Part shown: positions 1,797 through 34,151 of the stretch, one piece after another | Position numbering within the stretch: position 1 is the stretch's first letter | Layout: every line of letters begins with the position of its first letter | Assembly (NCBI RefSeq): GCF_002797435.1 | Contig: NZ_PGEN01000001.1 | Location: forward strand, 744,001-808,000 | Origin: Sphingomonas koreensis | GTDB taxonomy: Bacteria > Pseudomonadota > Alphaproteobacteria > Sphingomonadales > Sphingomonadaceae | Direction of reading: 5' to 3' | Length of the DNA: 64,000 nt | Translations under genes and position numbers: made by a program | The notes under the pieces: model-generated | What the model saw: only the letters and a program-made list of their open reading frames with translations | Database searches by the model: none | Told to the model about the DNA's origin: nothing

Positions 1797-2064
1797 TCGC
1801 GCCGCCAGCAGCTTTGTCGTTGGCACACTGAGCGACTACCGCGACACTGACCGTCAGTAGAAACATCACAAGAAATGGTGCCCCGACCACCCAAGACAAC
1901 CAATTCCGATGCGGTGCAAGAACGTCGGCTGCAGCGAATGCGCCAACTCCAGCGAGCATCCACAAGCCGCCGTGATCGCGAACAACCGTCACGCCAGCCA
2001 TCGGCCCAAGCGTCGCGTGGAGATGCCTCACGCGCCGAGCCACGTAATGCAGGTAGCGCCTCAC
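1789..2064 (-). CDS. Two-span membrane protein between nuoD and the NTF2-like gene (91 aa)
   Basis: A frame with GTG at 2064 overlapping the nuoD stop (GTGA) and TGA at 1791-1789. The 91-residue translation has a basic N-terminus ([16 protein letters not shown]) and two hydrophobic segments, about residues 33-50 and 57-80, ending in a Gly/Ala-rich tail. I recognise no domain. The overlaps at both ends make it part of the nuo transcript. Whether it associates with complex I is unknown. Confidence 0.65.
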
Positions 2065-3296
2065 CGGTCGCACTCCCCGAACACGATATCCATCGCGCCC
2101 AGAATCGCGGTGATGTCCGCCAGCATGTGGCCGCGCGTCATGAAGTCCATTGCCTGGAGGTGGCTGAACGCGGTCGGGCGGATCTTGCAGCGGTACGGCT
2201 TGTTGGAGCCGTCGCTGACCATGTAGATGCCGAACTCGCCCTTGGGGCTTTCGGTCGCGACATAGACTTCGCCCGCGGGGACGTGGAAGCCCTCGGTGTA
2301 GAGCTTGAAGTGATGGATCAGCGCTTCCATCGACTGCTTCATCTCGGCGCGCTTGGGTGGCACCACCTTGCGGTCGAGCGACGCGATCGGGCCCGACGGC
2401 ATCTCGTTCAGACACTGACGCATGATGCGCGCGGACTGATAGACTTCCTCGACGCGGACCATGAAGCGGTCGTAGCAGTCGCCGCGCGTGCCGACCGGGA
2501 TTTCGAACTCCATGCGGTCGTACACGTCATAGGGCTGCGACTTGCGCAGATCCCAGGGCAGGCCGGCGCCGCGGATCATCGGGCCGGAGAAGCCCCATTT
2601 GATTGCGTCTTCGCGGCTGACGATGGCGATGTCGACATTGCGCTGCTTGAAGATGCGGTTTTCCGCGACCAGGCTGATCGCGTCGCCGAACAGCTTGGGC
2701 AAGCGGTTGTCGAGCCAGTCGCCGATATCGGTGAGCAGCTTCAGCGGCACGTCCTGATGGACGCCGCCGGGGCGCAGGTAATTGTGGTGCATGCGCGCAC
2801 CGGACATGCGCTCGAAGAAGTTGAGGCAATCCTCGCGCAGCTCGAACATCCACAGGTTCGGCGTCATCGCGCCGACGTCCATCACATGGCTGCCGAGGTT
2901 CAGCATGTGATTGCAGATGCGGGTCAGCTCGGCGAAGAACACGCGCAGATACTGCGCGCGCACCGGCACTTCGAGGTCGAGCAGCTTCTCGACCGCAAGG
3001 ACGAAGCTGTGCTCCATCGCCAGCGGCGAGCAATAGTCGAGGCGGTCCATATAGGGGAGCGCCTGGGTATAGGTCTTGTACTCGATCAGCTTTTCGGTGC
3101 CGCGGTGGAGCAGGCCGACATGCGGGTCGATCCGCTCGACGATCTCGCCGTCGAGCTCGGTGACGAGGCGGAGCACGCCGTGCGCCGCCGGGTGCTGCGG
3201 GCCGAAATTGATCGTGTAGTTGGCGATCTGGGTGTCGCCGACGGTGGGATCGCTGGCGTCGGTGACCCCCGCGATTTCGTCGAGATACTGGGCCAT
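2061..3296 (-). CDS. nuoD: NADH-quinone oxidoreductase subunit D
   Basis: NuoD (49 kDa) forms the quinone-binding pocket of complex I together with NuoB. The 411-residue protein is full length and collinear with the family: the [11 protein letters not shown] block near residue 30, [15 protein letters not shown] around 60, MDRLDYCSP around 84, and a C-terminus ending in the usual [15 protein letters not shown]. The ATG at 3296 overlaps the nuoC stop (TAATG). No anomaly was seen. Confidence 0.97.
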
Positions 3297-32525: not shown

Positions 32526-33041
32526 ATGAACAATGTTCCACGCAGCGACCCGCTGCTCACGGTCACCCAACTCATCCTGCGGATCGGCATGGTCGTTCTC
32601 GGCATCGGGATCGCCCTGGCCGCCGGCGTGGCGATCGCGCTGGTGGTGATTCCCGATCAGCAGCTGATGCCGCGACTTTCCGACGGCAGCACGGTCTGGC
32701 TGGTCGTTGCCGGTGCGGCCCTGGTCAGCGTGATGATGGCACTTTATTTCCTCTTCCTGCGGCACCTCAGCCGCATGGTCGCCACGGTCGGCACGGGTGA
32801 CCCCTTCCAGCCTGAGAACGCCGACCGGCTCGAGAAAATGGCCTGGCTGACCCTCATCCTGCAGGGCTGCATGTTCGTCCTCGCTCCGCTCGTCACGATG
32901 ATCATGGATCGGATCGGCGAGAAGGGCGGCGGCCTCGAGCTGTCGTTCGACAGCCTGCTCCTCGCCCTCGTGCTGTTCGTCCTCGCCCGCGTCTTCCGCC
33001 GCGGCACGGCGATGCGCGACGATCTTGAGGGGACGGTGTGA
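32526..33041 (+). CDS. DUF2975 family membrane protein
   Basis: A 171-residue protein with four membrane spans and the DUF2975 layout: TVTQLILRIGMVVLGIGIAL, a VVIPDQQLMP loop, WLVVAGAALVSVMMALYFLFLRHLSRMV, then TGDPFQPENADRLEKMAW, the most conserved segment. It is nearly always paired with a small HTH gene, as here (TGATG overlap). The pair resembles a membrane sensor-like protein with its cognate regulator, but no function has been shown to my knowledge. Confidence 0.85.
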   Translation: MNNVPRSDPLLTVTQLILRIGMVVLGIGIALAAGVAIALVVIPDQQLMPRLSDGSTVWLVVAGAALVSVMMALYFLFLRHLSRMVATVGTGDPFQPENADRLEKMAWLTLILQGCMFVLAPLVTMIMDRIGEKGGGLELSFDSLLLALVLFVLARVFRRGTAMRDDLEGTV

Positions 33042-33250
33042 TGGCGATCAACGTGATGCTCGACGAGATGCTGCACGAACGCCGCATGACCCTCACCGAA
33101 TTTGCCGAGCGGATCGATCTGACCCTCGCCAATGCCTCGATCCTCAAGACCGGCAAGGCCAAGGCGATCCGCTTCACGACGCTGGAGGCGATGTGCCGGG
33201 TGCTGGACTGCCAGCCCGGCGACCTGCTCCGCTACGAACCCGAATCTTGA
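33041..33250 (+). CDS. YozG/Cro-type HTH regulator paired with DUF2975
   Basis: A 69-residue single-domain helix-turn-helix protein (LDEMLHERRMTLTEFAERIDLTLANASILKTGKAKAIRFTTLEAMCRVL). It ends with the CQPGDLLRYEP motif typical of the YozG-like XRE family. Its ATG overlaps the DUF2975 stop. It probably represses its own operon through the repeat at 32493-32505. Confidence 0.9.
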   Translation: MAINVMLDEMLHERRMTLTEFAERIDLTLANASILKTGKAKAIRFTTLEAMCRVLDCQPGDLLRYEPES

Positions 33251-33260
33251 CCCCGGCATC

Positions 33261-33282
33261 GGGCGGTCCTATCTGACCGCCC
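33261..33282 (+). terminator. Hairpin after the HTH gene
   Basis: A perfect 8-bp stem (GGGCGGTC, loop CTATCT, GACCGCCC) starts ten bases after the HTH stop codon. There is no T-run, so it may be a weak terminator or an RNA-stabilising hairpin. It directly precedes the sugE leader. Confidence 0.45.
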
Positions 33283-33359
33283 GAAGGCCACGTCCTTCCC
33301 CTGCACCGCGCAGGCATCAAGTCCGGGACGGCCCGGCAGCTTTAGTCAAGGAAGCTGTC
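33283..33359 (+). promoter_or_regulatory. Structured 77-nt leader of the SMR gene (copy 1 of 2)
   Basis: Four consecutive hairpins can be drawn. (a) GAAGG-loop-CCTTC (33283-33298). (b) CCTGC-ACCGC-GCAGG (33300-33314). (c) CCGGG-ACGG-CCCGG (33323-33336). (d) CAGCTT-loop-AAGCTG (33337-33357), whose loop and 3' arm contain the AAGGA ribosome-binding site. Hairpin c, an ACGG tetraloop on a G/C stem before an SMR exporter gene, resembles one half of a guanidine-II (mini-ykkC) riboswitch, but a second ACGR hairpin is missing. See the second copy at 33697-33773. Confidence 0.5.
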
Positions 33360-33680
33360 ATGCCCTGGATCTATCTCACCGTTGCCGGCCTGCTCGAAAT
33401 CGCCTGGGCGTTTCTGATGAAACAGTCCGACGGATTCACCAAGCTCGGCCCCTCGATCGCCACGCTCGTCACCATGGCCGCAAGCTTCGCCTTGCTCTCG
33501 CTGGCGATGAAGTCGCTGCCGCTCGGCACCGCCTACACCATCTGGACCGGCATCGGCGCGGTCGGCGCGTTCGTCGTCGGCATCGCGGTGCTCGGCGAAC
33601 AGGCGACGCCGATGCGCATCGTCGCGGCTGCACTCATCGTAGGCGGGCTGGTGCTGATGAAGCTCTCGTCGCAGAGCTGA
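33360..33680 (+). CDS. SMR family transporter, SugE/Gdx-like
   Basis: A 106-residue protein with four membrane helices. The start MPWIYLTVAGLLEIAWAFLMKQSDGFTK contains the essential membrane-embedded Glu (residue 13) and the W-A/K-QSDGFT pattern of the SugE/Gdx branch. The middle reads LPLGTAYTIWTGIGAVGAFVVGI. Members of this branch export guanidinium (Gdx) or some quaternary ammonium compounds. ATG 33360 follows AAGGA at a distance of seven bases. Confidence 0.9.
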   Translation: MPWIYLTVAGLLEIAWAFLMKQSDGFTKLGPSIATLVTMAASFALLSLAMKSLPLGTAYTIWTGIGAVGAFVVGIAVLGEQATPMRIVAAALIVGGLVLMKLSSQS

Positions 33681-33696
33681 TCCCACAGCCCGACAA

Positions 33697-33773
33697 GGAG
33701 GCCACGCCCTCCCCTGCTCCGATGCAGGCTCAAGCCCGGGACGGCCCGGCACCCCTTCATCCAAGGAGTGCCG
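33697..33773 (+). promoter_or_regulatory. Structured 77-nt leader of the second nuoA (copy 2 of 2)
   Basis: The same four hairpins as at 33283, in the same order and the same total length. (a) GGAGG-loop-CCTCC (33697-33712). (b) CCTGC-TCCGAT-GCAGG (33713-33728). (c) CCGGG-ACGG-CCCGG (33736-33749). (d) GGCACCCCTT / AAGGAGTGCC (33748-33772, one mismatch), which buries the SD sequence AAGGAG. Stem (a) differs from copy 1 by a compensating pair change, and stem (d) has a wholly different sequence but still pairs. Confidence 0.5.
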
Positions 33774-34151
33774 ATGCCCCCTGTGCTGATCGAATGGCTG
33801 CCGATCCTGCTGTTCCTCGGCATCGCCCTACTGCTGTCGCTCGGCTTCGTGCTGGCACCCATCGTCGCCTCGCGCTTCACCGGCACGCATCAGCCGACGC
33901 CGGAAAAGCTCACCGAATATGAGTGCGGCTTCCCGGCGTTCGAGGCGCCGCGCAAGGGATTCGACGTGCGCTTCTACCTCGTCGCGATCCTGTTCATCCT
34001 CTTCGACCTCGAAGCCGCCTTCCTCTTTCCCTGGGCGGTCAGCGTGTTCGATGTCGGCTGGGAAGCCTGGATCGGGATGATGATCTTCCTGTTCGTGCTC
34101 AGCTGCGGGCTGATCTACGAATGGAAGATGGGCGCACTCGACTGGGAGTAG
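33774..34151 (+). CDS. Orphan second copy of NADH-quinone oxidoreductase subunit A
   Basis: A 125-residue NuoA paralogue located about 28 kb from the nuo operon. It keeps the three membrane helices and all the hallmark blocks: [38 protein letters not shown] and the ending MGALDWE. It is clearly close to the operon copy at 4773-5147 (compare VGALDWE). ATG 33774 sits five bases after the SD AAGGAG. It converges on radA with a 1-bp gap. It may be an alternative subunit or a recent duplicate. Confidence 0.92.
   Translation: MPPVLIEWLPILLFLGIALLLSLGFVLAPIVASRFTGTHQPTPEKLTEYECGFPAFEAPRKGFDVRFYLVAILFILFDLEAAFLFPWAVSVFDVGWEAWIGMMIFLFVLSCGLIYEWKMGALDWE

Follow-up and report, generated by a model that had tools for sequence, protein, structure and literature searches.

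A stretch of 64,000 nucleotides of the Sphingomonas koreensis genome (contig NZ_PGEN01000001.1, positions 744,001 to 808,000 of the forward strand; hereafter the window) raises the question of why nearly the same leader RNA precedes two unlike genes, that of an SMR exporter and that of a solitary subunit of complex I. Leader 1 (33283-33359) ends directly before the ATG of gdx at 33360 and leader 2 (33697-33773) directly before the ATG of a nuoA paralogue at 33774. The original prediction, made from the sequence, regarded them as twin 77-nt leaders with the same order of four hairpins and proposed a guanidine-responsive or new translational switch that controls two different genes. Re-reading of the sequence agrees with the length, the positions, the order of the hairpins and the two different genes downstream, gdx/sugE and the nuoA paralogue. 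Of the interpretation, a guanidine-II-type translational switch with one ACGR hairpin that serves two different genes and is not a REP is retained, short of formal membership in guanidine-II; what is added here is that the first hairpin is altered rather than missing and that the element is widespread before gdx.

The two leaders of the window

Both leaders lie on the plus strand and are copies of one conserved RNA that consists of a first hairpin P1, a variable middle hairpin, a linker containing A-N-G, a second hairpin P2 and a masking hairpin. In leader 1, P1 (33283..33298, GAAGG-CCACGT-CCTTC, with the hexaloop CCACGT) is followed by the middle hairpin (33300..33314), the linker UCAAGU (33317..33322), in which A-N-G occupies positions -4 to -2 of P2, and P2 itself (33323..33336). 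The masking hairpin P4 (33335..33359) takes the GG of P2 and covers AAGGA at 33348-33352. Leader 2 contains P1 (33697..33712, GGAGG-CCACGC-CCTCC, with the hexaloop CCACGC), the middle hairpin (33713..33728), the linker UCAAGC (33730..33735), P2 (33736..33749) and P4 (33748..33772), with AAGGAG at 33763-33768. In an alignment of 55 columns the two are 87% identical, and P2 reads CCGGG-ACGG-CCCGG in both, as had been claimed. The compensating change predicted for the first stem is real, an A-T pair of P1 in one leader being a G-C pair in the other, and the ribosome-binding sites are masked in both by P4 stems of unrelated sequence. Since P2 and P4 share two bases, the GG at the 3' end of P2, in both leaders, the two helices can never be complete together, which yields two mutually exclusive forms.

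Distribution of the element

The first search pattern comprised the linker and P2 only, with one mismatch allowed, and left the P1 loop outside. Among 295 genomes of the genus, 51 contain it, at 55 places in total. The 51 loci that were read cover 52 of these places; 44 lie before gdx or the nuoA paralogue and seven do not. A hexaloop of the form C-N-ACG-Y is present in all 45 gene-linked leaders of the 44 loci, though it was absent from the search pattern. A covariance model (R1) built from these 45 leaders gave 56 strong matches (E <=1.3e-6) in 55 of the 295 genomes, with the window genome alone containing two. The model had been trained on 45 of the 56, and of the 11 new ones ten precede gdx and one is a solitary leader in the genome G244. 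A short P1 pattern with two mismatches did not discriminate, with 701 matches in 25 genus genomes versus 687 for the reversed control.

Across the order Sphingomonadales, R1 matched 30 of 296 genomes at E <=9e-5, seven from the window genus, 20 from elsewhere in the family and three from other families. A gdx frame follows at all 24 order-wide loci fetched as L201-L224, and an SMR start lies downstream at two further matches with a changed P2 (L225 and L226). In a sparse sample of the class, six of 230 genomes matched at E <=1e-4, two of the window genus and four others (L408-L411). A 22-base pattern was found in at least 120 stretches of named genomes, and among the matches listed an SMR frame lies downstream at 45 of 80. 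These 45 records comprise two metagenome-assembled genomes (MAGs) labeled only Proteobacteria and 43 Alphaproteobacteria, whose class we partly take from their names, with Peiella, Mangrovicella, Marinicaulis and Paeniroseomonas having been checked. The SMR-linked genera among the matches listed include Sphingomonas, Sphingopyxis, Novosphingobium, Brevundimonas, Caulobacter, Phenylobacterium, Asticcacaulis, Methylobacterium, Methylorubrum, Siccirubricoccus and Belnapia. The pattern also matches Actinobacteria and other distant records. The 35 of 80 loci among the matches listed that have no SMR frame next to them are taken as chance, with the exception of L297 in Brevundimonas sp. Leaf363, where a variant leader and the promoter pattern described below precede a gene (2019-2270, minus strand) for an 84-residue protein that is not Gdx and has no Pfam match. 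A variant-like element also occurs before a short non-SMR frame in a Mesorhizobium MAG (L350, around 4265), and a Rhodospirillales MAG (L336) has an element at each of two oppositely oriented gdx genes, with an odd first hairpin in the second element.

From 255 matches, 64 of which were rejected and 59 of which were duplicates, a set of 132 distinct leaders was obtained by a filter that demanded C-(A/C/G)-ACG-Y in P1 and CCGGG-ACGR-CCCGG for P2. Real leaders are found among the rejected matches as well (L208, L218, L247, L338, L351, L359). The 132 copies come from many Alphaproteobacteria; 127 precede gdx/sugE, four a nuoA paralogue and one another open reading frame. A plasmid-borne cassette was also considered and rejected: 120 plasmid records match and none spans 80% of the gdx-nuoA stretch.

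Conservation of helices and loops

Folding of the single leaders is modest evidence (z = -2.07 and -2.04, with 3 and 6 of 200 shuffles folding equally well), and the aptamer halves alone have no significant folding surplus (z = -0.57 and -1.04). The comparative evidence is strong. Across the 132 distinct leaders, the arms pair better with their own partners than with swapped ones, with -12.49 versus -9.90 kcal/mol for P4, -5.75 versus -5.01 kcal/mol for P1, and -8.60 versus -6.01 kcal/mol for the middle hairpin (0 of 300 permutations for each helix); the result is the same in 103 representatives of less than 90% identity. The structure is kept in relatives. In the 45 rows of the genus alignment P2 is invariant throughout, and P1 is closed by A-U in 24 rows and by G-C in 21. 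The support lent by the covariation table of this alignment is limited, since partners slid by -1 score higher (0.225 versus 0.138, with only 74.7% of the cells pairing).

The P1 loop of the 132 leaders is CCACGT in 104, CCACGC in 17, CAACGT in eight and another sequence in three, and the P2 loop is ACGG in 128 and ACGA in four; because the filter demanded the P1 loop and the form of P2, including ACGR, these counts are not independent evidence. Base -2 of P2 is G in all 132 leaders and also in 55 of 55 leaders of the named-genome scan, where the linker was unconstrained. Base -4 is A in 125 of 132, and base -1 is U, A or C.

Folding of P4 by itself brings the GG of P2 into the hairpin in 130 of the 132 leaders and pairs at least one base of an SD-like triplet in 126. 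By minimum free energy, the unliganded leader loses P2 to a P4 that uses the GG in 82 of 132 cases, keeps P2 intact in 40 and adopts neither form in ten, and the median cost of forcing P2 is 1.5 kcal/mol. The computed balance between P2 and P4 fits an ON switch without proving one.

The exporter gene and its putative promoter

The gdx gene (33360..33680, plus strand; PF00893, E = 1.2e-29) encodes an SMR protein whose best NCBIfam model is SugE, at 121.1 bits slightly below the cut-off of 126. According to PMC7695847, W16 marks Gdx proteins and G or A at that position marks Qac proteins. By its sequence the window protein is of the Gdx subtype, with E13, W16, S42, Y59 and W62, and the same set occurs in 124 of the 127 leader-linked SMR proteins, or 125 after correction of a start offset. 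The leader is not seen before the other SMR gene of the window genome (L030).

Upstream of leader 1 the sequence contains a sigma-70-like promoter, TTGACC-N16-CTATCT (33247..33274, plus strand), that would serve leader 1 and gdx. The pattern occurs upstream of 59 of 127 gdx leaders, none of the four nuoA leaders and none of 130 control stretches. Its presence before gdx leaders and never before nuoA leaders suggests one transcript with two switches, and gdx and the nuoA paralogue are probably carried together on a transcript that starts from this promoter. In the region directly upstream of leader 1 (32526-33250), a gene for a DUF2975 protein precedes a Cro/C1-type HTH gene.

The corresponding locus was observed in G244 (L159, about 520-640), where gdx and the nuoA paralogue are absent and the solitary leader remains. 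The leader has lost the ACG of P1 (CCACAT) and has an intact P2. It follows an HTH gene and precedes a gene that we take to be radA, as in the window. This one case is in line with the ACG of P1 being kept for gene control.

Relation to guanidine-II riboswitches

The guanidine-II class (mini-ykkC, RF01068) is characterized by two GC-rich hairpins with CG-bearing loops, of which both have the form ACGR, by its position before genes for guanidine exporters or degradation, by the binding of two guanidinium ions in a loop-loop dimer, and by an expected translational ON switch in which P2 competes with an SD-masking stem. The element described here shares the two hairpins, the ACGR loop of P2, the position before gdx/sugE, with leader 2 and its nuoA paralogue as the exception in the window, and, as judged by folding, the competition of P2 with the stem that hides the SD sequence. 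It differs in the loop of P1, which is C-N-ACG-Y instead of ACGR, in a P1 pocket devoid of the floor G, in the additional middle hairpin, in the conserved A-N-G before P2, and in its score below the Rfam cut-off. The single ACGR hairpin per leader that had been predicted is thus P2, with ACGG in both leaders, and P1 is present with the hexaloops CCACGT and CCACGC; by definition the variant lies outside guanidine-II.

The proposed comparison with RF01068 does return both leaders, with 19.6 and 18.1 bits, but below the gathering score of 32; the remaining Rfam matches in the window have E values of 0.32 to 9.4, all below cut-off, so that no other family accounts for the locus. RF01068 exceeded the cut-off in none of 121 genus genomes, and its matches at E <=10 in 115 of the 121 are mostly noise. 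Among 226 genomes of the order two exceeded it, both before gdx (41.8 and 33.1 bits); one of these loci has two ACGA loops (L005) and the other ACGA in P1 and ACGG in P2 (L242). No leader exceeded the cut-off at 18 further loci that were scanned along with these two, G591 among them.

In guanidine-II the pocket is formed by the floor G6, A7, the cross-strand pairs of C8 and G9, a purine at 10 and C11 (PMC5486947). The affinity for guanidinium quoted there is about 50 uM, with a Hill slope near 1.4. P2 of the variant has all of these nucleotides (G6, A7, C8, G9, R10, C11). P1 keeps A, C and G; an unpaired base replaces G6, and position 10 is a pyrimidine. Intermediate forms exist. The gdx leader of G591 reads AAGG-ACGG-CCTT and CCGGG-ACGG-CCCGG, with two ACGG loops, and the second leader of the same cassette, before the nuoA paralogue, combines the variant P1 GAGG-CAACGT-CCTC with the same P2, as if the two types of P1 were interchangeable. 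In other families of the class, hexaloops with a purine occur before gdx in L408 (CAACGA) and in L410 (CCACGA, with GCGA in P2), and L411, also before gdx, has a plain ACGA tetraloop in P1 and a compensated pair in the P2 stem (CCAGG/CCUGG). In L409, again before gdx, the loops are UAACGT in P1 and AACGG in P2. These graded P1 loops, the true guanidine-II leaders before gdx and the G591 cassette make derivation of the variant from guanidine-II likely, as far as can be judged from sequence. The P2 departures in L409 and L410, together with those before the SMR frames of L225 (a stem U for the floor G) and L226 (a loop ACAG), count against the pocket reading.

For off-consensus hairpins of vertebrate RNAs, it has been considered in PMC12335538 that they may be non-functional or that they partner a consensus hairpin for a single pocket, and PMC7544219 questions the extent of the interaction between P1 and P2 within one guanidine-II RNA. 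We favor the reading in which the altered P1 would partner the consensus P2 to form one pocket. Guanidine-III (ykkC-III) shares an ACGA element and similar genes (PMC2864571) but has a pseudoknot architecture (PMC5696562), and Rfam searches of the window gave no match to it. The guanidine-IV variant Gd4v is a precedent for variants of a guanidine riboswitch; it belongs to another class and, as far as described in PMC9788692, was never found before sugE. No description of the present variant was found in the titles and abstract beginnings searched; Weinberg 2017 and the 1977 sequences of PMC12335538 may include it.

Proposed regulation of gdx and nuoA-prime

For the conservation, the helices, the gene association and the promoter pattern described above, we consider it fairly probable that both leaders are copies of one asymmetric guanidine-II derivative that acts as a translational ON switch for guanidinium. 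P2 retains all nucleotides known from the guanidine pocket, and the C-N-ACG-Y hexaloop in P1 keeps the C and G required for loop-loop pairs and lacks the floor G and the purine. In the absence of ligand, the GG at the 3' end of P2 would pair into P4 and the ribosome-binding site would be hidden; guanidinium would stabilize P2 and the presumed contact between the loops of P1 and P2, freeing the site so that translation is turned on. Both genes would be carried on one transcript with a separate copy of the switch for each. The Gdx-type SMR gene after 127 of 132 leaders favors this proposal; against it stand the deviation of P1 from the ACGR definition and the absence of two pocket features, and likewise the RF01068 scores below cut-off, the 40 leaders whose unliganded fold keeps P2, the ten with neither form and the invariance of P2 in the genus alignment. 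We know of no link between nuoA and guanidine.

The same pocket nucleotides missing from P1, and the A-N-G before P2 with its invariant G, would suit a riboswitch of the same build with a changed ligand, such as a substituted guanidine, a biguanide-like compound or another organic cation; variants of guanidine-I provide a precedent for a change of ligand. Gdx-Clo transports substituted guanidines too (PMC7695847), and a guanidine-IV variant has been proposed to take another ligand (PMC9788692). A changed ligand is nevertheless unlikely, since gdx is by far the most frequent gene downstream, as it is for true guanidine-II, the two-ACGG and the variant leader coexist in the cassette of G591, and the P1 types grade together. 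A structured leader that needs no small ligand, either an RNA thermometer or a repressor hairpin bound by a protein, would account for the masked ribosome-binding site and for the modest folding surplus of single leaders. This is improbable, as the loops and the A-N-G linker are kept far beyond the needs of masking and the sequence of the masking stem varies freely. REP elements or chance GC-rich hairpins are suggested by the GC-rich composition of the leaders and by the occurrence of two near-copies 413 nt apart. The covariance searches of genus and order revealed no sampled genome with more than two strong copies. The 56 matches of R1 are spread over 55 of the 295 genomes of the genus, and 44 of the 51 loci read for the first pattern lie before gdx or the nuoA paralogue, which places the element at gene starts. 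In agreement with the original prediction, the REP explanation is rejected on copy number and position in the sampled genomes, and we give it hardly any weight.

The nuoA paralogue

The product of the second gene (33774..34151, plus strand; PF00507, E = 1.5e-34), here called NuoA-prime, is a full-length member of the NuoA/ND3 family of complex I subunits, with PF00507 over most of its length and the ECGF loop. Its nearest solved relative is 8qby_A, which we take to be from Paracoccus. The ordinary nuoA gene of the same genome (4773..5147, minus strand) heads the nuo gene cluster, and its product is 75% identical to NuoA-prime. NuoA-prime differs from ordinary NuoA/ND3 by its location beside gdx outside the nuo cluster, by forming a clade of its own and by an altered TMH1-2 loop.

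At least two nuoA matches were obtained in nine of 298 genomes of the family. A renewed search of eight of these and of G451 revealed that the second matches are mostly split genes or distant relatives with 32-37% identity. A gdx-linked copy is present in three of the 298 genomes (the window genome, G565 and G591) and also in G451 and Sphingopyxis sp. LC81 (L265), amounting to five genomes of four genera; in four of the five the variant leader precedes it. In G565 (L367, around 1374) the leader before nuoA-prime keeps the P2 stem with a GAAA tetraloop, a change that, by its sequence, should abolish ligand binding. NuoA-prime forms one clade in a 49-row tree that holds four of the five copies (96/86; 94% of bootstrap trees). 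By this phylogeny, the nuoA regarded originally as an orphan is part of a distinct and rare clade of paralogues. An S. koreensis protein (P0012) is 89% identical to NuoA-prime.

Twenty columns separate NuoA-prime from 45 cluster copies; four are adjacent in the TMH1-2 loop after ECGF and the rest are spread. Among the five copies of known context, position 58 is A in four (D in 43 of 45 cluster copies), position 59 is P in all five (15 of 45), position 61 is K or R in four (S in 39 of 45) and position 62 is G, A or P in all five (Q in 44 of 45). Five further proteins with the same loop were chosen by that loop and hence are not independent evidence. The TMH1-2 loop carries Cys39 of ND3 and is part of the quinone channel where biguanides bind, and repulsion by Arg77 of NDUFS7 is thought to disfavor biguanides in the active state (PMC7614227). 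A complex I subunit tolerant of guanidino compounds would make sense beside an exporter, and such a role may be conceived for NuoA-prime from its sequence. The locus would then be a guanidinium-sensing operon of two genes, both preceded by a separate asymmetric guanidine-II switch. Gdx would export guanidinium, and NuoA-prime, whose quinone-site loop is more positive, would take the place of the normal subunit and render complex I guanidino-tolerant. The riboswitch class itself would combine a full pocket with a reduced one. This extended proposal is rather doubtful. The 8qby subunit also has a lysine nearby, the G591 copy lacks the cysteine and retains T58 and S61, and genes other than nuoA-prime follow 128 of the 132 leaders. 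Free guanidinium is, to our knowledge, not a known inhibitor of complex I.

Implications

If the assignment to a guanidine-II derivative is right, the commonest guanidine-II-like element of Sphingomonadales escapes the standard model at its cut-off. The variant model matched strongly (E <=9e-5) in 30 of 296 genomes of the order, and in another sample of the order RF01068 exceeded its cut-off in two of 226. The asymmetric pair of loops would serve as a test of the need for two identical pockets in guanidine-II. Since gdx and nuoA-prime are also paired in a few relatives, guanidinium and respiration may be linked, and if a complex I subunit is indeed controlled by a guanidine switch, the question arises of how guanidinium affects respiration.
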